Shown: in pieces, positions 38,612-51,147 of the stretch
Position numbering within the stretch: position 1 is the first letter of the stretch
How the letters are laid out: each line of letters opens with the position of its first letter
Origin: Fusobacterium varium
Lineage (GTDB): Bacteria > Fusobacteriota > Fusobacteriia > Fusobacteriales > Fusobacteriaceae
DNA: 64,000 nt
Assembly: GCA_900637705.1 (NCBI GenBank)
Contig: LR134390.1
Coordinates: 1,054,001-1,118,000 of the forward strand
Reading direction: 5' to 3'
Made by a program: the position numbers and the translations under genes
Notes under the pieces: model-generated
The model's database searches: none
Seen by the model: the letters and a program-made list of their open reading frames with translations, nothing else
What the model was told of the DNA's origin: nothing

Positions 38612-38626
38612 TTGAAGGAGCGAAAG

Positions 38627-39694
38627 ATGAAAAACAAGAGAAGTACAAAGGAGCAATCATTTTGTTGGCAGGAGAAAAAAGTATTGAGATTATTTAGATG
38701 TCTATATGTGGGAAAGGAACTTGACAGGATTAGAAATCTGTATCTGACTCTTACTGAAATCTACAGTGATTTTAATGGGCAGGATATAAAATACTATACT
38801 GAAACAATAGCTAAATACAGTGGATTAAGCAAAGGTTGGATACCTAAAGGACTAAAAATACTTGAAGAGTTAAAAGTAATAGAATTGGTGGAGGAAAGAA
38901 GCAAGGGGAAATTTAAAGGGAAAAAATTAATATTTACTCCTGAAAACGTTGAAGAAATGGAAAAATTTACTAGAGAAGAAGAAATCAATAACGAGGAAAC
39001 TATTATCGAGGAAACTGTTACTGGTAAAACTATTACTGGAGAAACTATTATCGAGGAAAGTATTGCTGGTAAAACCATCACTGGAGAAACTATTGCTGAG
39101 GAAATTACCATGGGAGAAACCATCACTGGAGAAACTATTACTGGAGAAACTATCACTGGTAAAACCATTACTGGTGAAACCGTTGCTGATTTTTTACAGA
39201 CATCAGAAGATATTTTTGTTTTAGAAGATAATAAAAGATTAAAAGATATAAATAATACACACACAGAGGGAGAAAAAAATATTGAGAACAGAGAATGCAA
39301 AAAAGATGGCATGGAAAACACGCCAGTAGAGATCCAGCAGATATTAAAAAAATACAAAGAGTTGAATCTGCCTGATTTTGACTATAGACCAGAGAACCAT
39401 ATTTTGCTCAGGGCATATGGAGAATTGGGAGCTGCAAAGCTATTTGAAGCACTGACACTGATGTCACAGTCAAAATTTGTAAAAAACAACATGAGTGTGA
39501 ATGCAATCTTTAAAGTGGAAAACCTCAAAAAAGCTATCAATGGGAACTTTAAGGATAAAATATATAAGGGAAAAAAGAGCATTTCTGATACTAAAAAAGA
39601 ATTTAAAGAAATTGAGTATGAAGATTCTACAGGGGAATTTATAAAAGGGCTGCTTGCAAAAACATCTAGAGGGGGAGTAGATGAAGAAATGTGA
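38627..39694 (+). CDS. Phage/plasmid-type replication initiator-like protein with pentapeptide repeat tract
   Basis: A 355-aa protein. Residues ~25-110 look like a winged helix-turn-helix (TLTEIYSDFNGQ, YYTETIAKYSGLSKGWIPKGLKILEEL). Residues ~123-186 are a run of five-residue units of the form [EK]TI[TAI][GE]. The C-terminal third (LPDFDYRPENHILLRAYGELGAAKLFEAL, split over ~250-278) resembles DnaD/replisome-organiser regions. It lies directly before a DnaC-like loader and overlaps it by 14 bp, as in phage replication modules. Start ATG 38627 follows GAAGGAG. Identification is by pattern and context only. Confidence 0.6.
   Translation: MKNKRSTKEQSFCWQEKKVLRLFRCLYVGKELDRIRNLYLTLTEIYSDFNGQDIKYYTETIAKYSGLSKGWIPKGLKILEELKVIELVEERSKGKFKGKKLIFTPENVEEMEKFTREEEINNEETIIEETVTGKTITGETIIEESIAGKTITGETIAEEITMGETITGETITGETITGKTITGETVADFLQTSEDIFVLEDNKRLKDINNTHTEGEKNIENRECKKDGMENTPVEIQQILKKYKELNLPDFDYRPENHILLRAYGELGAAKLFEALTLMSQSKFVKNNMSVNAIFKVENLKKAINGNFKDKIYKGKKSISDTKKEFKEIEYEDSTGEFIKGLLAKTSRGGVDEEM
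38994..39184 (+). repeat. In-frame 15-bp minisatellite inside the initiator-like gene
   Basis: About twelve imperfect copies of a 15-bp unit close to GAAACTATTACTGGT, encoding ETITG, KTITG, ETIIE, ETIAE and variants. The unit length is a multiple of three, so copy-number change would lengthen or shorten a linker without breaking the frame. Confidence 0.85.
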
Positions 39695-40487
39695 ATTTTG
39701 TGGGGAAGATTATGTGAAAAATGAGAATAAATATTTTGCTGCGCTTCCAAAGGGGATTAAAAAAGAGCTGGAATATATACCCAGATGCGATTGTCTAGAG
39801 AAAAATAGGGCAAAGGAATTGGAGAAACTGGAAAAGAAGAGAGTACAGGAGTGTATGAAAAACAAGCTGAAGAAGTGCCTGGATATTTCTGTAATGGATA
39901 AAAAGTTTATAAACAGCAGGTTTGAGAATGCAGATATGAGCAGTAGTCATATGCAGCTGGCTAAAAGATATGCAGAGAATTTTCTGAAGAAGGATAAAAA
40001 AGAGGGTCTGCTTTTTTATGGGGGAGTGGGAACAGGGAAGACATTTGCAAGCGCCTGTATAGCGAACTATCTTATGGAGCAAGGGGAAACAGTGATAGTA
40101 ATCAATCTGGGACTGTATTTGAACAAACTCACCATAGAATGGGGAGAGGGAGAAAAAATTATTCTGGAACAGACAGAAAAATGTGATTTGATGATTATAG
40201 ACGATTTTGGATCTGAAAAAGAACTGGATAAGAATCAGACAGGGTGGAGAGCAGAAAAAATATATAATCTCATAGATGGGAGATACAGGAGTGAGAAGCC
40301 TTTGATAGTATCAACGAATCTGAACTTCAGTGAAGATAGAAACAGATGTGAGATAACTGAAAAGTTTTCAACACAGGGGCAGAACAGGATAAGGGACAGA
40401 ATAATTGATATGTGCTTTCCTGTACGAATAGCAGGAAATAGCAGAAGGGGAATGACACAGGAGAGATTCAGCGAATTTATGGAATAA
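39681..40487 (+). CDS. DnaC/IstB-like ATPase, probable helicase loader
   Basis: A 268-aa AAA+ protein. It has an N-terminal zinc-knuckle-like CEFCGEDY ... CDC, a helical stretch, then Walker A YGGVGTGKTFASACIANYL (~113-131) and Walker B LMIIDDFGSE (~172), arginine-finger region RIRDRIIDMC. This layout is that of phage DnaC-like helicase loaders. Codon use is richer in G/C-ending triplets (CTG, GCG, AGG) than the metabolic genes nearby, a sign of transfer. RBS GAGGGGGAG lies inside the preceding gene. Confidence 0.8.
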   Translation: MKKCEFCGEDYVKNENKYFAALPKGIKKELEYIPRCDCLEKNRAKELEKLEKKRVQECMKNKLKKCLDISVMDKKFINSRFENADMSSSHMQLAKRYAENFLKKDKKEGLLFYGGVGTGKTFASACIANYLMEQGETVIVINLGLYLNKLTIEWGEGEKIILEQTEKCDLMIIDDFGSEKELDKNQTGWRAEKIYNLIDGRYRSEKPLIVSTNLNFSEDRNRCEITEKFSTQGQNRIRDRIIDMCFPVRIAGNSRRGMTQERFSEFME

Positions 40488-40558
40488 AAAATTTGGGAGG
40501 CAGGGAATGAAAAAGAATTTGGAGGAAAGTGGAGCAGAGATAAAGAGAGGGAGTACAG

Positions 40559-40798
40559 GTGAATAGCGAAGAGTATATTTACAGAAAACTTGATACTCTA
40601 TCCTCTCTGGATAAGGTTTTATCTGAAGAAATGGTTAAACATCTAGGGGAGTGGGCAACGATAGACGATGTGGCAAAATATTTTAAAAAACATAGGAATA
40701 CTATATGCTACAAGCTGGAAGCAGGAGATATACTGCATAGAAGAATAGGAACGAGTATTTTGATTTATACAAGAAGCTTGATTTTTCTATTGGAATAA
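40559..40798 (+). CDS. Small helix-turn-helix protein (excisionase-like)
   Basis: A 79-aa protein with GTG start at 40559. GEWATIDDVAKYFKKHRNTICYKLEAGDILHRRIG is a MerR/excisionase-type HTH (shown here in outline, residues ~32-66). GEWATIDDVAKYF is the recognisable core. A 19-codon frame with its own RBS (40507-40566) overlaps its start and may couple translation. It could be a recombination-direction factor or a small regulator of the module. No integrase is present nearby. Confidence 0.55.
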   Translation: MNSEEYIYRKLDTLSSLDKVLSEEMVKHLGEWATIDDVAKYFKKHRNTICYKLEAGDILHRRIGTSILIYTRSLIFLLE

Positions 40799-40905
40799 GA
40801 TGCTAATACACATACATACACAAACAGCCACATTGGTGCACTGGATTGTTATGCGCATTGAGAGTATCATATACGTATGGCAAAAATAAAACAGGAGGCA
40901 GTAAA

Positions 40906-41220
40906 ATGGCAGGAGAAAATCAAGTAATATTAGCAGTGGTTCAAAAAGAAATGGAGAAGGTGGAAAATGCAATCAAGAGGGAAAAGGCTATATTAAAAAA
41001 TATAGACGATATAACAGCAACTCTTGAGCATATAGCAGAGCTAGTAGAATCAGGAAAGGAGTTCCCAGAAAACTCAGCATATGAGTCATACAAAGACTGG
41101 CAGGAAAGCGCAGAGAAGGAAATTAAATCTTATACAACTTCTTTGGAAACAATAGACAAGTACAGAAGTCTACTGGCAGCATACCAGTTTTATGTAAAAA
41201 ATAATACACCAGAAGCTTAA
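40906..41220 (+). CDS. Small helical protein, hypothetical (mobile module)
   Basis: A 104-aa soluble, highly charged, mostly helical protein with heptad-like spacing in MEKVENAIKREKAILKNIDDI (split over ~15-35). RBS AGGAGG lies 7 nt before ATG 40906. It shares the higher-G codon use of this module. A terminator follows at 41228. No known domain. Confidence 0.55.
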   Translation: MAGENQVILAVVQKEMEKVENAIKREKAILKNIDDITATLEHIAELVESGKEFPENSAYESYKDWQESAEKEIKSYTTSLETIDKYRSLLAAYQFYVKNNTPEA

Positions 41221-41227
41221 AGAAAAG

Positions 41228-41258
41228 AGGCTGTGGCAGAAGCTGCAGTCTTTTTTTT
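41228..41258 (+). terminator. Intrinsic terminator in the mobile-like module
   Basis: AGGCTG/CAGTCT (41228-41233 with 41246-41251), then seven T. It follows the stop at 41220. Confidence 0.65.
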
Positions 41259-41287
41259 ACCCAAAAATAAAAAACGGAGGAAAATTT

Positions 41288-41470
41288 ATGAAAACAATAA
41301 TAATAAAATTTTTAAAATATTTTATCAGCAGATGGTTTGGAACAAAGGCAATGGAAAAAGTAGTGATAACAGCTTTGGGAGAATTGGTAAAAAGAACAGA
41401 AAGCAAAATAGATGACAAGATATACGAGGCAGTATTTGAAAAACTGGAGGAGGAGAAAAATGATAAATAA
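41288..41470 (+). CDS. Small protein, hypothetical, phage-like
   Basis: A 60-aa protein with a hydrophobic/basic N-terminus (MKTIIIKFLKYFISRWFG) and an acidic helical tail. RBS GGAGG precedes the ATG. It overlaps the next gene by 11 bp. Pairs of tiny overlapping genes of this sort are typical of phage lysis or holin-accessory regions, but nothing proves that here. Confidence 0.45.
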   Translation: MKTIIIKFLKYFISRWFGTKAMEKVVITALGELVKRTESKIDDKIYEAVFEKLEEEKNDK

Positions 41471-41696
41471 TGCAGAACTGTTTTTTAAAATAATAACTAC
41501 AACAGGAACTTTTTTTCTGGCATACCACAGGTACACATTATCATTGTTTGAGAAAAAAATAGATAAAGGGGAGTGCGAAAAAGAAAGAATCTTTGCAGAA
41601 AAATTCAGAATAGAAAATATAAAAACACTGACTGAGGGAATAAGCAGAATTGAAGAAAGAATGACAAGGATAGAGGAGTATCTGATGAAGCATTAA
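41460..41696 (+). CDS. Small membrane-anchored coiled-coil protein, hypothetical
   Basis: A 78-aa protein: a short hydrophobic segment (AELFFKIITTTGTFFLAYH, residues 5-23), then a charged helix ending ISRIEERMTRIEEYLMKH with heptad character. RBS GGAGGAGG precedes ATG 41460. The layout resembles holin-adjacent or spanin-like small phage proteins. Function unknown. Confidence 0.45.
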   Translation: MINNAELFFKIITTTGTFFLAYHRYTLSLFEKKIDKGECEKERIFAEKFRIENIKTLTEGISRIEERMTRIEEYLMKH

Positions 41697-41746
41697 GAGG
41701 GAGAAAAAATAGAATACTAAAAAGTGGAAAAAGCGAGCTTTTTGCT

Positions 41747-42138
41747 AAAAAGTTCTTGTTTATACATAAAGGCGAACACATTCCCTATATTTTCCCTATC
41801 ATTGTACTCTTTAAATTTGTAAAAGTCAACATAAAAGTTTTGGGAGGGGAATGGGGTCCAAAAAATGAGGTATTAAAAATTGGGAGGTTAGAGCGTCTAA
41901 AAGTTCGCTTTTATGTATAAAAAGGAACTTTTCTCAGTTATCGGCTTAATTTCTACATTTAAATTTTTAATTTTAATTAGGATTTTGGAGCAAAAAATTG
42001 AAAAAAATTTTAAGAAAAATTTAAATAAAAAATATATAAAAACAAACTTGGGGAGGAAAAATATGATTGAAAAGATTATGAAGGCAGTAAAAAGCAGCAA
42101 CAAAAGAAGAGGAAGAAATATAACAATAGGGGCAGTAA
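41747..42138 (+). repeat. Autotransporter upstream region, direct repeat copy 1 (other copy 45327-45711)
   Basis: About 390 bp running from the left inverted site through the promoter segment to the signal-peptide codons is closely repeated at 45327-45711. The block from about 41855 to 41912 (GGGTCC...TTCGCTTTTAT) is almost base-for-base identical. The last part (AAATAAAAAATATATAAAAA) occurs a third time before the second autotransporter at 46336-46371. Confidence 0.85.
41752..41928. promoter_or_regulatory. Putative invertible promoter 1: IR-flanked segment upstream of autotransporter 1
   Basis: Two 26-bp sites (41752-41777 and 41903-41928) lie in inverted orientation around 125 bp. Read inward-out, each starts GTTCGC(C/T), has centre TTTAT-GT-ATAAA and ends GAAC, a 12+2+12 layout. 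The arms match at about 23 of 26 positions. Inside, on the minus strand, is a consensus promoter: TTGACT (41829-41824), 17 bp, TACAAT (41806-41801). It points away from the autotransporter at 42063. Inversion would aim it at that gene. Each arm can also form a hairpin, so paired terminators are the alternative reading. Confidence 0.6.
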
Positions 42139-45100
42139 TTGGATTCCTTTTGTCGTGTACAGCAGTAATGGGTGAAGATAAAGTACAGTTAGATATAGCT
42201 GTAAATGATGAAAAAATAAAGTTTAATGGTGAAGAATATAATAGTGAAACTCACAAATTTTTAGACAATACTTTTGATGGAGAAACTTATACTAACAATG
42301 AGGTGATTTTTAAAGAAACTTCAGATATGAATGATACTTCTACTGGGATAAAATTGGCATTATCAGATAAAACTATAAATATAATAAATAATGGAATAAT
42401 AGCAGCTAGAGGTGGAGGAAATGATGGTTATGGAATAGTTATTAGTTCAGGGACAATAGGAATTTTGACTAACAACGGACTAGTATTAGGTTATGGTGCT
42501 AATATGTCTTATGGTATATATAATGATTATTCAGGAAATATAACCACATTAATTAATAATGGACTAATAACTGCTAGCGAAGCTAGTAGTCCATGTGGAA
42601 TACAAAATAATGGAACAATAACTACACTAATTAACAACAAGTTTATAATTAGTAGCGAGTATGGAATAGAAAATGATGGAACAATAGGAACCTTAGTAAC
42701 ATCAGGAGCTAGTAATGGGATAAGTAGTAGTAACTCAAAAATAGGAAGCCTATTGAATAATGGAGTAATAGTAAGTGATGGGACTGAAACAGGAATATAT
42801 AATGGAGGGGCGTCAGCAGAAATGGACAACCTAAATAATCTAGGAGTTGTTTATGGAGAGAAAAATGCTATATCTAATACTGTTAATGGAGTTGTTTATG
42901 GAACTATAACAAGTGCAAAGAACTATGGAATACTTGTAAATGGAAGTGATACTAATGAGGTACTTGATGGATTAGATATTGTTGATTCATCTACTGCAGA
43001 TGCAAATAAATTAGTAAACTATGGACTTATAATAAAAAATAATGGTGAGGGTAAAATAGAGGCAGGAGCTGGAGGAGATCAAGATATATCAATACCATTC
43101 TATGATATTGAAGAAAATATCATGGGAGAAAGAAAGGTAAAAGTAGAAAATGTAACAGGAAAAAATGGTGATAAAAGTAATTCATTTGAAGGAGATAAAG
43201 AAAACCATATATTAAATGCTTTAACAAATACATATAAGGTTGGTGACAAAAATGATGAAGCTGAAGTGAAAGGTTCAATAGTCAATGCTTATGGAACAGC
43301 AGTTGTATTTGAAGAAGCAAATAAACAATTAACTTTGTCAGGAACAATAGTAAATGGTGGAATAGATGGGAATGCAACCATATTAGGAAGTGGTGGAGAG
43401 GATACACTAATACTTCAGTCAGGAGAAATTAAATATACAGATAAAGGAGTGGAAAAATCTATAACTCAAAATACTATAGTTAATGGAAATATAGATATGG
43501 GAGCTGGAGTTGATACCCTTACAATAGGAGATGGAACAATAATTAATGGAATTCTTGATGGTGGAGATAGCAATTCTAAAGATACTCTTAATTTTGGAAT
43601 AAGTTCAGGTGCTAAGTCAAATTCAGCAGACAGTCAAGGAATAAATATTATGCACAATATATCTAATTTCGAAAATATAAATATAAATACAAATGTTACT
43701 CTATTTAATCAAACTGTTAAAGCTGGTGGAACAGTAGAAGAATTAAAAGTAACAGGTGTAGAGAGCATAAAAATAGAAAAAGATGGAAATCTTATCCTAA
43801 GAATAAATGGAACAAGTGGAAACTCACATGCTTTATCAAGTAATACAGGAGGAGTAATAGAATCAAATGGAGGAAAACTTCTTTTAGCTCTAAATGGAGT
43901 ATCAGATGGAACTACAATAGATATGGGAATGAAGCTTGGAGATGGATTGTATGGTGTAGAAAATAATGATATTAAATACAGAGATTTATTTACTTTAGAA
44001 ACAACTTCTCTATTACACTCAGTTAGTAAAAATGAGCAGGATAATACAAAAGTAACTGTTACAACTAAATCTACACTGCCATTATCACCAGATACCCCTG
44101 AAGATGTAAATTATGAAAAATTAAATAAAATATATCAGAGTATGAGAGTTGTAGATGGAGTGAAGGAATTTGATGTAGATAGTGATGAGAAACTTTCAAC
44201 ATTCTTAGGATATTTAAATGACATCTATGCAGGGAATCCATATTCATATTCAAATGAGCTTTCAAGAAAATCAGTGGGAATGTTTAGAGATATAGCCACA
44301 GAAAATCAATTCAAACCAGAGCTGAATAAATGGTTGATAATGGGTGGATTAACTCATGCAGATGGTGGAACAAAAGATACATACTATGGAAAAGGATATT
44401 ATACATATGATATAGGAAGTTCAGATATAGACGCAGATACTAAGATAACAGGAGCATATATGCTTGGAGAGTATGGAGTATCAGACACATTGACTTATGG
44501 AGTAGTAATTGGAGGAAACAAGCTTAAATCTAACTTGTCTAATGGGTCAAAAGTAGATGGAGATGCGCTATATATGGGAGCGTATGCTAAGAAGTATGTA
44601 GGAAATCTAAAAGTAACAGGAGGATTAGGGCTACAGTATGGAGATTATGATGCAGATAGATTTGCAGCAGGAAAAGGAATAACAGAAACAAGAAGTTATT
44701 CAGATAACTATAATGATATGACATATGATATTTATCTAAATGGAAGATATTCTAATCCAATGGGAGATAACTTCTTCTTAGAACCATATGGAACATTGTC
44801 ATATACATATATCAAGCAGGATAGCGCAGATGAAGGAAGCAAGGTATTAGCAATAGAAACAGATTCAAAATCATTTGACTACACAGCAGCTAAAGTGGGA
44901 GTAGACATTAAGAAAGTAATACCACATGAAAAGGGAAAAAGTACACTGTCAGCAGGAGTGAGCTATACAAGACTTCTTACTGGGGCAGATGAAGAAAATA
45001 TCACAGGAAGATTTAAAGGAGAAAATGCAACTGACTTTGATATTTTGGTGGCTCATAAAAATGAACAAAGCATAGGACTAAATGCTAAGTACGCACTTGA

Positions 45101-45326: not shown

Positions 45327-45711
45327 AAAAAAGTGTTCCCTTTTATCTATAAAGGCGAACACTTTTCTGATGTTTTCCCTACCATTATAATCTTTAAATT
45401 TGGAAAAGTCAATATAAAAGATTTGGGAGGAAAACGGGGTCCAAAAAATGAGGTATTAAAAATTGGGAGGTTAGAGCGTCTAAAAGTTCGCTTTTATAGA
45501 TAAAGAGGAACTTTTTTCAGTTACCGTCTTAATTTCTACAAATAAATTCTCAATTTTAATTTGGATTTTGGAGTAGAAAATTGAAAAAATTTCAAATAAA
45601 AATATATAAAAACAAACTTTGGGAGGAAAATTTGTGATTGAAAAAGTTATGGAAGTAGTAAAAAGCAGCAACAAAAAGAGAAGTAGAAATATAACAATAG
45701 GCGCAGGACTG
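45327..45711 (+). repeat. Autotransporter upstream region, direct repeat copy 2
   Basis: This matches 41747-42138 from the left inverted site to the NITIGA codons, then jumps straight into autotransporter 3'-end sequence (GCAGGACTGGGG). The 45231-45326 stretch before it holds no gene. Confidence 0.85.
45335..45511. promoter_or_regulatory. Putative invertible promoter 2: IR-flanked segment upstream of scar-HU-HU-autotransporter 2
   Basis: This has the same design as 41752-41928: inverted 26-bp sites at 45335-45360 and 45486-45511 around exactly 125 bp. The centre is TTTAT-AG-ATAAA in both arms (the first pair has GT). On the minus strand lies TTGACT (45412-45407), 17 bp, TATAAT (45389-45384), a full consensus promoter facing away from the genes at 45634-49523. 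Flipping it would drive the scar ORF, both HU-like genes and autotransporter 2, which follow without another clear promoter. Confidence 0.6.
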
Positions 45712-45726: not shown

Positions 45727-45746
45727 CAATAAAAATGGGGGAAGTA

Positions 45747-46040
45747 ATGAAAGAAGGGGAATTTATAAGGTTCTATAGAGATAGAAATTGTTTGAGGAGC
45801 ATTAAGGAAGCAAAAAAAAAGATAGACTTGTTTTGGACTGTTGTGTTGAAGGCTTTAGATGAAGATGGAAAAGTATTATTAAAAGACTGGGGAGTATTTG
45901 AGAAAAAAGAGGTAGCTCCTAGAAAAATAATGACACCGAGAATGGAAAAAGAAAGAGTGATAAAAGCAGGGGAAAAGATAATATTCAGAACAGGAACAGG
46001 CTTAAAAACTCTTGTCAATGGAGCTGATGCTGATGAATAA
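45747..46040 (+). CDS. HU/IHF-family-like DNA-binding protein 1
   Basis: A 97-aa protein. The C-terminal half carries the HU arm pattern: LKDWGVFEKKEVAPRKIMTP (~45-64), then IFRTGTGLKTLVNG (~80-93; compare HU FKAGKALKDAVN). The N-terminal helices are more divergent than in housekeeping HU. ATG 45747 follows GGGGGAAG; an ATG at 45735 overlaps the RBS. It is translationally coupled to the next HU-like gene and placed between the second invertible segment and autotransporter 2. A DNA-bending role is inferred. Confidence 0.7.
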   Translation: MKEGEFIRFYRDRNCLRSIKEAKKKIDLFWTVVLKALDEDGKVLLKDWGVFEKKEVAPRKIMTPRMEKERVIKAGEKIIFRTGTGLKTLVNGADADE

Positions 46041-46305
46041 GAGAGAGCTGGCAAAGATATACAGCAAAATAAGTCAGGGAAAGGTATCACAAAAAGCAGC
46101 CCTAGAGGAAATAAATATATTTACACAAACCTTGCAGGAAGCCTTGATGAAATATGATTCAGTAACATTTGTCAACATAGGAGTATTTGAAATACTGGAA
46201 AGAAAGCCGAGATTAGTTAGCAATCCATCGACTAGGGAGATAATGAAAATATATCCTAAGAAGGTAGTAAGATTTAGAGCATCAAAAAATATAATGAAAC
46301 CTTAA
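46033..46305 (+). CDS. HU/IHF-family-like DNA-binding protein 2
   Basis: A 90-aa protein with HU architecture: MNKRELAKIYSKISQGKVSQKAALEEINIF (helices, split over 1-30), VTFVNIGVFEILERKPRLVSNPSTRE (~46-71) and VVRFRASKNIMKP at the end. The GxFxxxxRxxRxxxNPxT pattern is clear. It overlaps the first HU-like gene by 8 bp, which suggests a heterodimer like IHF alpha/beta (inference). The start ATG 46033 has GGAG 9 nt upstream. Confidence 0.75.
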   Translation: MNKRELAKIYSKISQGKVSQKAALEEINIFTQTLQEALMKYDSVTFVNIGVFEILERKPRLVSNPSTREIMKIYPKKVVRFRASKNIMKP

Positions 46306-46382: not shown

Positions 46383-49300
46383 GTGATTGAAAAAGTTATG
46401 AAGGCAGTAAAAAGGGGAAATAAAAAGAGAAGTAGAAATATAACAATAGGTGCAGTGATTGGATTTTTGTTGTCATGTACAGCAGTAATGGGAGCAGATA
46501 TTGGATTAGAAATAACTCAAAAAGCAGATGAAGAAATAAAATTTGACGGTATTGAATATGACAGAGATAGACATAAATTTTCAGATAATACTTTTAAAGA
46601 CAATACTTATACAAACAATATGACAATTTCTGCAGAAAATGCTTCAGGGAATGCTTATGGAATAAAACTTAAATTATCAGGTGAAAGTAGTATAAGTATA
46701 ATAAATAATGGAACAATATCAGGTAATTCTACAAAAAGTACTGGAAATGGGATATCCAATGAATCTGGAATAATAGAAACATTGACTAATAACGGTTTAA
46801 TATCTGGTTCAAGTCCTACTAATGGATATGGGATATCCAGTAATGGAATAGGAATATTGACTAATAACGGTTTAATATCTGGTTCAAGTTCTGCTAATGG
46901 ATATGGGATATACAGTAATAAGGGAACAATAGAAACATTGACTAATAATGGGATAATATCTGGTAGTTCAGGTAGTAATGGAAATGGGATAAAGATTAAT
47001 AATGGAAAAATAGAAACATTGACTAATAATGGAATAATATCTGGTTCAGGTAGTAATGGATATGGGATAGCCACTGCTTTTGGAGCAATAGAAACATTGG
47101 CTAATACAGGAGTTATTTATGGAAAAGCTAATGCTATAGTGAGAGGCAATGGAGATATAGGTACAGCAAACAACTATGGAATACTTGTAAATGGAAATGA
47201 TGGAGGAAAAGTAGTTAATAACTTAACAATTGTTAATGCTATTCCTGATGAAGATAATACTAATTTAAGTAAAAATGAAATATTAAACAGAGGACTGATA
47301 TTTAAAGCATTAGATACAGGGTATAAAGTAGAAACAGAAGCCTATAAACAATTTGGAGCAATCTATAAGGATAAGGATATTGTAATTGGTTATGAGAAAG
47401 ATGATGAAAATCCTGATTCAAGTAATCCAATAACAAAAAAATATACAATAATCAATGCTAAAGCTATTGAAAGTGAAAGCGATATGACTGGAATAAATGC
47501 TGCAACTGAAGAAGTTAATATAACTGGAACTGAAAGTTTAAAATTAGAAAATGGAATTTTAACATATGGAGATTCTCAAAAAGAAAAAATTTCTTCAGAT
47601 AAAGGGTATATTTTAAATGGTATAACAGATACTTTGAAAGTTACAAAAAAACATAATGAACTTAATGATTCAATAATTAATGCATATAAGACAGCAATAG
47701 TTATGGAAGGTGATAGTACTTATTTGGAACTTAATAATACAATAGTTAATGGAGGGTTAGGTGATAATTCTCCTGTAATATTAACAAGAGGAGATAAAAA
47801 CTTTTTAACTATAAAAGGAGATACGATAGTTAATGGAGAAATAAAATCAGAGGGAAGATTAAATACTTTAAATCTCTATGGAAAAGAAAATAAGACAAGA
47901 AGCAGTAATACTGAAAGTATGAATATTATTAATAATATAACAGGATTTGGAAGAATACAGATAGAAAATGATGTCACTTTTTTTGAAACAGCTAAAGTAA
48001 CAGAAGTAGAAAGAATAAATATAAATAATGGAGGAACTCTCAATCTTAGATTAAAGAAAGATGAAGGAGCTTCAAAAGCAACTCATGCTCTTTCATCAGG
48101 AAATACAGGTCTTCTTATAGCTGGACTGGAAAAGGGAGGTTCTTCAACAGAAGGGACACTTAATTTCATAACTAATGGAATGGGAACTGGTACTATCATA
48201 GATATGGGTGGAGCAAAATTAGAAAATGTAAATCTAAAAACAAATAGTATTGTGTATAAGTTTGAAATAGTAGAAACGGAAAATGAAAATATTAGCGCAA
48301 ATATAGGAGATATAAAACTTGACTTAAAAGGAAGTTTAGAAGAAATAGTTAATAGTGGAAGCATAACTTTTGATAATTATCCAAAATATAGTCTTATTCC
48401 AGATGAAACAGAGTATAAGGCATTAGATAAAATATATCAAAGTTCAAAAACAGATGATAATATGAATGCCTTAGTAGAGATACTGGATTCATCTTCAGAT
48501 GAAGAACAATGGAAAAGACTTCTTTCATTTTTAGGAGGAATATATACAGAAACTCCATACTCATTTTCAAGCGAACTTTCAAGAAAATCAGCTGGAATGT
48601 TTAGAGATATAATCACAGAGAACCAGTTCAAACCAAATTTAAATCAATGGTTGATAATGGGTGGACTAACTCATAGAGATGGAGGAACTAAAGACAGCTA
48701 CTATGGACAGAATTATCATGGAATAGATGCAGGTACAGCAGATGTAGATGTGGATATGAAGCTTACTGGAGCTTACGCCCTTGGTAAATATGGATATTCA
48801 GAAAATGTATCATTAGGAGTAACAGCAGGAGGAAACAAAAGTGAAGCTAAACTTCCAATGTCAAAAGTAAAAGGAAACAGTGGATATATAGGTGCTTTTG
48901 CAGAAAACTACAGAGGAAACCTTACACTAAAAGCAGGAGCAGGAATTCAATATTCAGAATATGATGCAGACAGAGCAACACTGGGAGGACACAGCTACAG
49001 TGAGAAATATTCAGATATGGCATATGATATTTACCTAAATGGAAGATATTCTCATAACATAGGAGAAAACCTGTTCTTAGAACCATATGGAACACTGTCA
49101 TATACATATGTAGACCAAGAAAGCGCAGATGAAGGAAGCAAAGTATTAGCAATAGAAACAGATTCAAAATCATTTGATTATACAGCAGCTAAAGTGGGAG
49201 TAGACCTTAAGAAAGTAATACCACATGAAAAGGGAAAAAGCACACTTTCAGCAGGGGTAAGCTATACAAGGCTACTTACTGGTGCAGATGAAGAGAATAT

Positions 49301-49523
49301 CACAGGAAGATTCAAAGGTGGAAGCGACTTTGATATTTTAGTAGCTCATAAAAATGAACACAGCATAGGACTAAATGCTAAATATGCTCTTGAACTTGAA
49401 AATGGAATCCTATTTGATGTAAAAGGAAGCTATTCAGTAGAGAGAGATTCACATAATGGAAATGGAAAAAACAGAAATAAAGGTGAATGGATAGTAGGAG
49501 CAGGAATAGGGTACAAGTTCTAA
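46383..49523 (+). CDS. Type V autotransporter 2 (surface/adhesin-like)
   Basis: A 1046-aa protein, GTG start at 46383 after GGAGG. The signal start (MIEKVMKAVKRGNKKRSRN, ITIGAVIGFLLSCTAVMGA) is the family one. Passenger residues ~95-245 hold five to six copies of a ~25-residue unit (IETLTNNGLISGSS-xxNGYGI), nearly identical in DNA. A more irregular beta-helix region follows. The barrel covers ~735-1046 (NQFKPNLNQWLIMGG ... GEWIVGAGIGYKF). The barrel DNA from about 49050 on is nearly identical to autotransporter 1, which gives a substrate for recombination. Function is inferred as surface adhesion or interaction. Confidence 0.92.
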   Translation: MIEKVMKAVKRGNKKRSRNITIGAVIGFLLSCTAVMGADIGLEITQKADEEIKFDGIEYDRDRHKFSDNTFKDNTYTNNMTISAENASGNAYGIKLKLSGESSISIINNGTISGNSTKSTGNGISNESGIIETLTNNGLISGSSPTNGYGISSNGIGILTNNGLISGSSSANGYGIYSNKGTIETLTNNGIISGSSGSNGNGIKINNGKIETLTNNGIISGSGSNGYGIATAFGAIETLANTGVIYGKANAIVRGNGDIGTANNYGILVNGNDGGKVVNNLTIVNAIPDEDNTNLSKNEILNRGLIFKALDTGYKVETEAYKQFGAIYKDKDIVIGYEKDDENPDSSNPITKKYTIINAKAIESESDMTGINAATEEVNITGTESLKLENGILTYGDSQKEKISSDKGYILNGITDTLKVTKKHNELNDSIINAYKTAIVMEGDSTYLELNNTIVNGGLGDNSPVILTRGDKNFLTIKGDTIVNGEIKSEGRLNTLNLYGKENKTRSSNTESMNIINNITGFGRIQIENDVTFFETAKVTEVERININNGGTLNLRLKKDEGASKATHALSSGNTGLLIAGLEKGGSSTEGTLNFITNGMGTGTIIDMGGAKLENVNLKTNSIVYKFEIVETENENISANIGDIKLDLKGSLEEIVNSGSITFDNYPKYSLIPDETEYKALDKIYQSSKTDDNMNALVEILDSSSDEEQWKRLLSFLGGIYTETPYSFSSELSRKSAGMFRDIITENQFKPNLNQWLIMGGLTHRDGGTKDSYYGQNYHGIDAGTADVDVDMKLTGAYALGKYGYSENVSLGVTAGGNKSEAKLPMSKVKGNSGYIGAFAENYRGNLTLKAGAGIQYSEYDADRATLGGHSYSEKYSDMAYDIYLNGRYSHNIGENLFLEPYGTLSYTYVDQESADEGSKVLAIETDSKSFDYTAAKVGVDLKKVIPHEKGKSTLSAGVSYTRLLTGADEENITGRFKGGSDFDILVAHKNEHSIGLNAKYALELENGILFDVKGSYSVERDSHNGNGKNRNKGEWIVGAGIGYKF

Positions 49524-50171: not shown

Positions 50172-51147
50172 TTATCCTCCTATTTGATTCATTTTTCTTT
50201 TATCTATACTATTTTCTTCAATATTTTTATTCATGCTGTGATGTTCAGGCTTATTGTATATGGCATTAAAAATAATTTTTTCTAATTCTTCATCAGTTGC
50301 TTTATTTCTAATAATATTTTTTAAATCAATACCTTTATTCCAGTGGAGGCACAGTTTTAAAAATCCATCAGGAGTCAGTCTTATACGATTACATTTATCA
50401 CAAAAATTATGAGATAGTGGAGTGATAAATCCTATTTTTCCTTTTGAAAAGGGACTCTTGAAATATTTAGCAGGACCAGAACCAATTTTTTCTTCTACAG
50501 GAAAAAGTGTTCTCTCTTTTTTATTATTTCAATAACTTCATCATTGGACATTGAAATAAAATTATTTCCTTCACCAATTGGCATAAGTTCAATAAAGCGA
50601 ATATCAATAGGATATTTTTCACTGAACTTGACAAAATCCATAATTTCATTATCATTTTTACCTTTAATAAGTACAATATTTAATTTTATTCTTTCCATTC
50701 CTATATCTAATGCTTTAAAAATATTTTTGATAACCTGATTAAATGACCCACCTCTTGTTATTTCACTATACAAGACAGGATTTAAAGTATCTAGGCTTAT
50801 ATTTATTTTTTTACTCCATTTTTTACAAGAGAATCAAAGTTTTCTTCAAGGAGCAAGCCATTAGTTGTCATACTTATCTCTTCAATATTTTTAATAGAAT
50901 GAAGATTTTCCAGTATCTCTGTAAAATTTTTTCTTACTAGAGGTTCTCCTCCAGTAAGACGAATTTTTTTGATTCCAATTTTACTAAAAATTGTTACAAT
51001 TCTTTTTATCTCTTCAACTGTAAGAAGTTCTTCTTTGGGAAGAAAATTCATATTTCTCTCACTCATGCAGTATTGGCATCTGAGATTACATCTATCAGTA
51101 ACGGAAAGCCTCAAGTACTCTATTTCTCTTCCTATTTTATCTATCAT
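50172..51147 (-). CDS. moaA: GTP 3',8-cyclase, broken by two single-base frameshifts
   Basis: A radical-SAM enzyme for the first step of molybdopterin synthesis. Frame 1 (to ~50803) has SVTDRCNLRCQYC (C-x3-C-x2-C, ~15-27) and RLTGGEPLVR. Frame 2 has YSEITRGGSFNQVIKNIF and IRFIELMPIGEG. Frame 3 has the second cluster FCDKCNRIRLTPDGFLKLCLHW and ends QIGG, the C-terminal GG needed for catalysis. Adding one A to the coding-strand runs at 50806-50812 and 50517-50522 restores GVKKINISLDTLNP and KKERTLFPVEEKIG, giving ~325 residues as expected. Retention of both clusters and the GG tail argues for sequencing error. Confidence 0.88.

Follow-up and report, generated by a model that had tools for sequence, protein, structure and literature searches.

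A putative invertible promoter upstream of a Fusobacterium varium autotransporter gene, one of a genome-wide family of paired sites

The fimS element of Escherichia coli, worked by FimB and FimE, is an invertible promoter for a surface structure; its invertases are about 200 amino acids long and consist essentially of the catalytic domain only, and a directional bias is known for the switch. In Bacteroides fragilis, the multi-promoter inversion system (Mpi) uses one trans-acting invertase to flip the promoters of many surface genes. The ipuS element of uropathogenic E. coli (upaE; PMC6083910) places inverted repeats around a promoter 5′ of an autotransporter gene, and several short tyrosine recombinases act on this one switch. 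In the gut bacterium Akkermansia muciniphila, inverton group 138 adjoins autotransporter-domain genes (PMC11892184). The autotransporter complement of F. varium and related species is unusually large, at 32-44 predicted per genome (PMC5720691).

Here, we analyze a window of 64,000 nucleotides, positions 1054001-1118000 of the single contig C1 (3,302,398 bp) of an F. varium genome, labeled G000; positions without a genome label are those of the window. G008, G009 and G010 are the genomes of three sister species and, together with G000, make up the four genomes with sites. A sequence-only reading of the window had proposed that positions 41752-41928 hold an invertible promoter in the OFF orientation, upstream of an autotransporter gene. 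We find this to be the best explanation, and we assign a probability of about 0.9 to the reading that the element is a site-specific invertible promoter, and thus a phase switch, worked by a tyrosine recombinase. The proposal gains support from two tests: the matching of crossover cores between partner sites, and the presence in related species and paralogs of interiors that are inverted between conserved flanks.

According to the proposed mechanism, a tyrosine recombinase would act at two 26-bp sites, each composed of two arms of about 10 bp around a 6-bp crossover core, and recombination would invert the 125-bp segment between the sites. In the sequenced orientation the predicted promoter reads away from the autotransporter gene (OFF). 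After inversion it would point at the gene (ON), and the resulting transcript would cross the right site and a 134-bp leader. We infer that flipping at this element is ongoing and that it changes the gene's transcription.

The element at 41752-41928 and its family

The two 26-bp sites lie in inverted orientation exactly as the sequence-only reading had placed them, and belong to a repeat of 30 nt that is 90% complementary, its arms separated by 125 nt (Table 1). The core of the right site is the reverse complement of the core of the left site. The minus-strand promoter (41829-41801) is the best sigma-70-like match within 41200-42200, and the same type of scan returns 0 plus-strand matches from 41545 to the autotransporter gene, as had been claimed. 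The gene's ATG is indeed found 134 bp past the right site, behind a GGGGAGG motif. Its product matches the Pfam autotransporter beta-domain (E = 1.2e-27) and has a signal-like N-terminus.

Table 1. Coordinates of the element, its predicted target and related features (window positions unless a genome label is given)
Feature	Position	Strand	Remarks
Left (gene-distal) recombination site, GTTCTTGTTTATACATAAAGGCGAAC	41752..41777	+	central 6 bp ATACAT at 41762-41767
Putative invertible segment, 125 bp	41778..41902	none	13 further segments of 78-99% identity elsewhere in this genome
Promoter TTGACT-17-TACAAT	41801..41829	-	-35 at 41824-41829, -10 at 41801-41806; points away from autotransporter (OFF)
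Right (gene-proximal) recombination site, GTTCGCTTTTATGTATAAAAAGGAAC	41903..41928	-	central 6 bp ATGTAT at 41913-41918
Autotransporter gene, 1055 aa, PF03797	42063..45230	+	predicted target; ribosome-binding site GGGGAGG at 42050-42056
Second element, left site	45335..45360	+	core ATCTAT
Second element, promoter TTGACT-17-TATAAT	45384..45412	-	points away from downstream genes (OFF)
Second element, right site	45486..45511	-	core ATAGAT, reverse complement of left core
Second autotransporter gene	46383..49523	+	871 bp past second element
Non-autotransporter elements	G000:C1:885563, G008:165899, G010:2722479; G008:271343, 2372032, G010:1096384; G000:3026262, G008:465399, G009:2247027

Searching the window with 20 bp of the arm, and allowing as many as 3 mismatches, gives 5 matches, compared with 0.04 expected. 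The window contains a second element, and the stretch between it and the second autotransporter gene holds an autotransporter start that is truncated, along with a pair of HU-like DNA-binding genes (45735-46305). Upstream of the first element lies a phage-like cassette (38612-41696) with a replication-initiator-like gene, a DnaC-like ATPase gene and small genes such as MAGENQVILAVVQKEMEK...; elsewhere in the genome the cassette recurs 5′ of several autotransporters, with parts sometimes lost. Further along, a MoaA-like radical-SAM gene on the minus strand (50495-51147) appears to be split into two ORFs of 114 and 92 aa, which suggests a frameshift.

What the sequence-only reading overlooked is the scale: the element is one of 23 paired elements in the genome, which also encodes a candidate trans-acting invertase. 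Aligning its sites to other autotransporter upstream regions, a check that the reading had proposed, uncovers the same inverted pairs around promoters across the genome. A whole-genome search with a 211-bp region returns 14 similar elements, including the one at 41752-41928 (78-100% identity), plus many isolated arms. Their alignment shows that both arms, the segment between them and the promoter TTGACTTTTnnAAATTTAAAGAGTAyAAT are conserved in all 14, apart from minor differences in certain copies, and an arm scan of the fetched regions adds further pairs that have different interiors and start-to-start spacings of 142-196 bp.

The site is a near-perfect palindrome whose outer blocks, GTTC/GAAC and TTTAT/ATAAA, are conserved, and it is summarized by the pattern GTTCnnnTTTATnnATAAAnnnGAAC, which occurs 43-49 times in G000 and is matched by the sites of the window element. 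With up to 2 mismatches there are 49 occurrences per strand in G000 and 0 for a reversed-pattern control. With up to 1 mismatch, there are 24, 40 and 42 occurrences in three further members of the genus and 0 in eight others. Exact matches are present in 4 of 61 Fusobacteriaceae genomes and absent from the other 57. Across the genomes that have them, the sites form inverted pairs around promoters, mostly 5′ of autotransporters, and make up a family of roughly 20 putative switches in each of these gut Fusobacterium genomes.

Family elements are also seen 5′ of Wzz-like genes, acyltransferase-like genes and small outer-membrane protein genes (Table 1). Four sites in G000 are solitary, with no partner in range (C1:595782, 756241, 1840157 and 2105540), and are possibly remnants of deleted elements. 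DNA similarity searches of plasmids and phages returned 0 copies of the element. Exact-promoter matches in viral contigs and genome contigs came, by their titles, from unrelated organisms only and were judged to be chance; so was a single site-pattern match in viral contigs, which lies in coding sequence of 38% G+C and has no partner site.

Matched crossover cores and inverted interiors

To compare partner sites, we paired all sites separated by 110-260 bp within the regions fetched from the four genomes, whether or not they resembled each other (n = 71 pairs). In 70 of 71 pairs, the bases at positions 11-16 are reverse-complementary between the two partners. Once within-genome duplicates are dropped, 56 pairs remain and the core match is 98%, whereas shuffling the partners inside each genome gives 28%, with a maximum of 45-54% in two runs and of 54% in 5000 shuffles. 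Arm positions 5-7 and 9-10 fall within the shuffled range, with 5-7 near its upper edge, and the inner-arm positions 17-19 and 20-22 are slightly above it. A per-position analysis of 63 unique pairs finds a strong excess at positions 11, 12, 13, 14 and 16, while position 15 is invariant; this set was filtered for arm similarity, and the 71-pair set without that filter is the cleaner test. Core variants, including GT, AC, CT, AG, AT and GG centers and changes at positions 11, 12 and 16, are matched on both sides.

Tyrosine recombinases require identity in the crossover core. Consequently, this pattern is the one that repeated site-specific inversion is expected to leave: cores that match where outer-arm positions do not are the mark of a crossover by a tyrosine recombinase. 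An RNA stem between the arms would require matching over the whole arm, and a terminator or operator would require none. In G000 alone, cores match in 22 of 23 pairs. The sole mismatched pair (G000:C1:1564473/1564624, spanning 1564473-1564649) combines ATACAT with ATCTAT and, because it is flanked by two elements that carry each of these cores, looks like a hybrid. It probably arose by ordinary recombination through the shared interior and should be unable to flip.

We compared the orientation of the interiors with that of the flanks, pair by pair, for 77 elements: 205 pairs agree and 23 disagree, and the strong disagreements trace to three elements, all in sister species. G008:2099442 and its paralog G008:2279891 have flanks in direct orientation (87/103 and 90/100 identities) and an inverted interior (152/175, compared with 108/198 in direct orientation); the same element is also inverted relative to G000:1145044 (flanks 87/106 and 84/101, interior 149/174). 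G009:958543 is inverted relative to at least six G009 paralogs and three G008 ones, and its TTGACT-17-TATTAT promoter points at its autotransporter gene (ON). The weakest of the three cases is G009:3783353, which was compared with G009:1934758 (flanks 98/100 and 93/100; interior 163/213 inverted and 146/220 direct, with local scores of 152 and 89). The change in orientation is located at the sites, and from these alignments inversion appears to have occurred at such sites. Since the cases compare paralogs and orthologs, they speak to past inversion and not to its rate; two orientations of one locus within a single strain were found nowhere, the window element included.

Candidate invertase, OFF bias and alternatives

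The genome encodes eight intact tyrosine recombinases, two of which are short (198 and 189 aa). The 198-aa gene (C1:358180-358773) is intact and adjoins no site. Its relatives at 75% identity or above (75-100%) occur only in G000, G008, G009 and G010, exactly the genomes with sites; the next-best intact relatives are 54-57% identical, on smaller contigs of G010, and 51% identical, in G003. This co-occurrence is supportive but not proof, as the four genomes are probably members of a single clade. The protein carries all of the catalytic residues (R, K, H-x-x-R, H and Y) and amounts to a catalytic domain of about 200 aa, as in short FimB-type invertases. It is 17-19% identical to FimB and FimE over the aligned part, which falls short of a close relationship; the protein may work like FimB and FimE, and sequence does not place it in their family. 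We consider this FimB-size recombinase the probable invertase, the most likely enzyme to act in trans on the roughly 20 elements. Three other tyrosine recombinases were considered and set aside: those of 189 and 333 aa occur in genomes lacking sites as well, and the close relatives of a 319-aa protein (81-90%) are found only in G009 and the site-less G001. A second lineage of short recombinases, paralogous to the 198-aa gene, lies beside lipoprotein-like genes and is intact in G008, G009 and G010. In G000 this second paralog is broken by several stops and frame changes (C1:1140660-1141195, L147), about 4 kb from element 1145044.

Promoter direction was scored for elements with a recognizable large surface gene, giving 35 OFF, 0 ON and 14 undecided across the four genomes, and 16 OFF, 0 ON and 1 undecided among the autotransporter-linked promoters of G000. 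The window element went unclassified in this scoring, as an upstream-extended ORF hid the signal sequence, and is OFF on direct reading; G009:958543 was undecided in the scoring and is inverted by alignment. At G008:165899, a perfect TTGACA-17-TATAAT promoter points at a Wzz-like gene (ON). Nearly every promoter is OFF in all four assemblies, a bias that would fit either selection in culture or an OFF-favoring recombinase. FimE, for example, favors OFF.

The same bias is compatible with a formerly invertible element that is now frozen OFF in this strain, its sites being relics of past switching. All 16 scored autotransporter-linked promoters of G000 are OFF and the second recombinase paralog is broken in this genome alone of the four, both as this explanation would have it. 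However, the 198-aa recombinase is intact and the G000 cores remain matched in all pairs but one. Moreover, G010 is also OFF wherever scored despite intact copies of both paralogs, so the OFF bias needs no broken enzyme. We regard a frozen element as unlikely.

A Hin-type serine invertase is a very unlikely agent of the inversion. The 12+2+12 appearance of the sites, palindromes of 26 bp centered on an asymmetric dinucleotide, does resemble hix-type sites, but the matched core spans about 6 bp rather than 2. Further, G000 has no small serine recombinase: its single PF00239 match is a large protein of about 450 aa, encoded near a phage-like gene.

The sequence-only reading had added a caveat, that each arm alone is an imperfect hairpin with a T-run, so that the arms could be a pair of terminators. 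This holds for the right arm, where a hairpin is followed by T-rich sequence on both strands and folds with -8.7 and -9.4 kcal/mol, better than its shuffles (z = -3.3 and -4.8); it fails for the left arm, which folds no better than its shuffles. In a terminator explanation, two bidirectional intrinsic terminators would insulate the autotransporter gene from neighboring genes, and the minus-strand promoter would be incidental or would make a short RNA. Yet a scan around the element found no terminator-like site, and only one of the two stable hairpins that such an arrangement calls for is present. Nor do terminators predict that the hairpin centers should match between arms in nearly every pair, or that interiors should be inverted exactly between the sites. 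We judge this explanation highly improbable; the arms could control read-through as a secondary role. Finally, it is scarcely credible that the palindromes are operators for a dimeric regulator on either side of the promoter, with no DNA inversion: their near-perfect symmetry and conserved outer blocks would suit such a protein, but in operators an asymmetric core would not stay matched between inverted partners while neighboring arm positions drift, and inverted interiors would not arise.

Returning to the invertible promoter, a broader arrangement can be sketched, which we advance tentatively and consider possible but doubtful. In this arrangement, one Fusobacterium group would operate a switchboard in which two paralogous short tyrosine recombinases, with a FimB/FimE-like division of labor, control about 20 promoters per genome under a strong OFF default, and the loss of the second enzyme would have shifted or locked the whole set OFF in this strain. 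Its targets would include autotransporters, HU-like genes, an outer-membrane protein, and Wzz-like and acyltransferase-like genes.

Comparison with known switches

If about half of the autotransporter genes sit behind invertible promoters, almost all of them OFF in culture, then work on the surface proteins of cultured cells samples one state only. The system provides a clear candidate enzyme, and the matched-core test offers a general, read-free way to recognize site-specific inversion from assemblies alone. Our search of the main texts of open-access papers on Fusobacterium invertible promoters, invertons, DNA inversion and phase variation found no such system reported; PhaseFinder-type predictions may already include some of the loci.

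Compared with the described switches, the Fusobacterium system has its own architecture. The Akkermansia group 138 inverton (PMC11892184) belongs to a different phylum and is likened to it by gene context alone. Mpi (cited in PMC11868660) is alike in scale, acting on many surface-gene promoters. Mpi employs a serine invertase mainly at capsule loci, whereas here a tyrosine recombinase is the predicted enzyme and most targets are autotransporters. The fim repeats are 9 bp long, compared with sites of 26 bp, and the low identity of the candidate enzyme to FimB and FimE likewise separates the two systems. In ipuS (PMC6083910), a single 260-bp element has 7-bp repeats and adjacent recombinase genes; each Fusobacterium genome has about 20 elements, whose 26-bp sites are palindromic and have no recombinase gene beside them. 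The locus presents a known kind of switch, comparable to fimS, ipuS/upaE and Mpi, in a new lineage.
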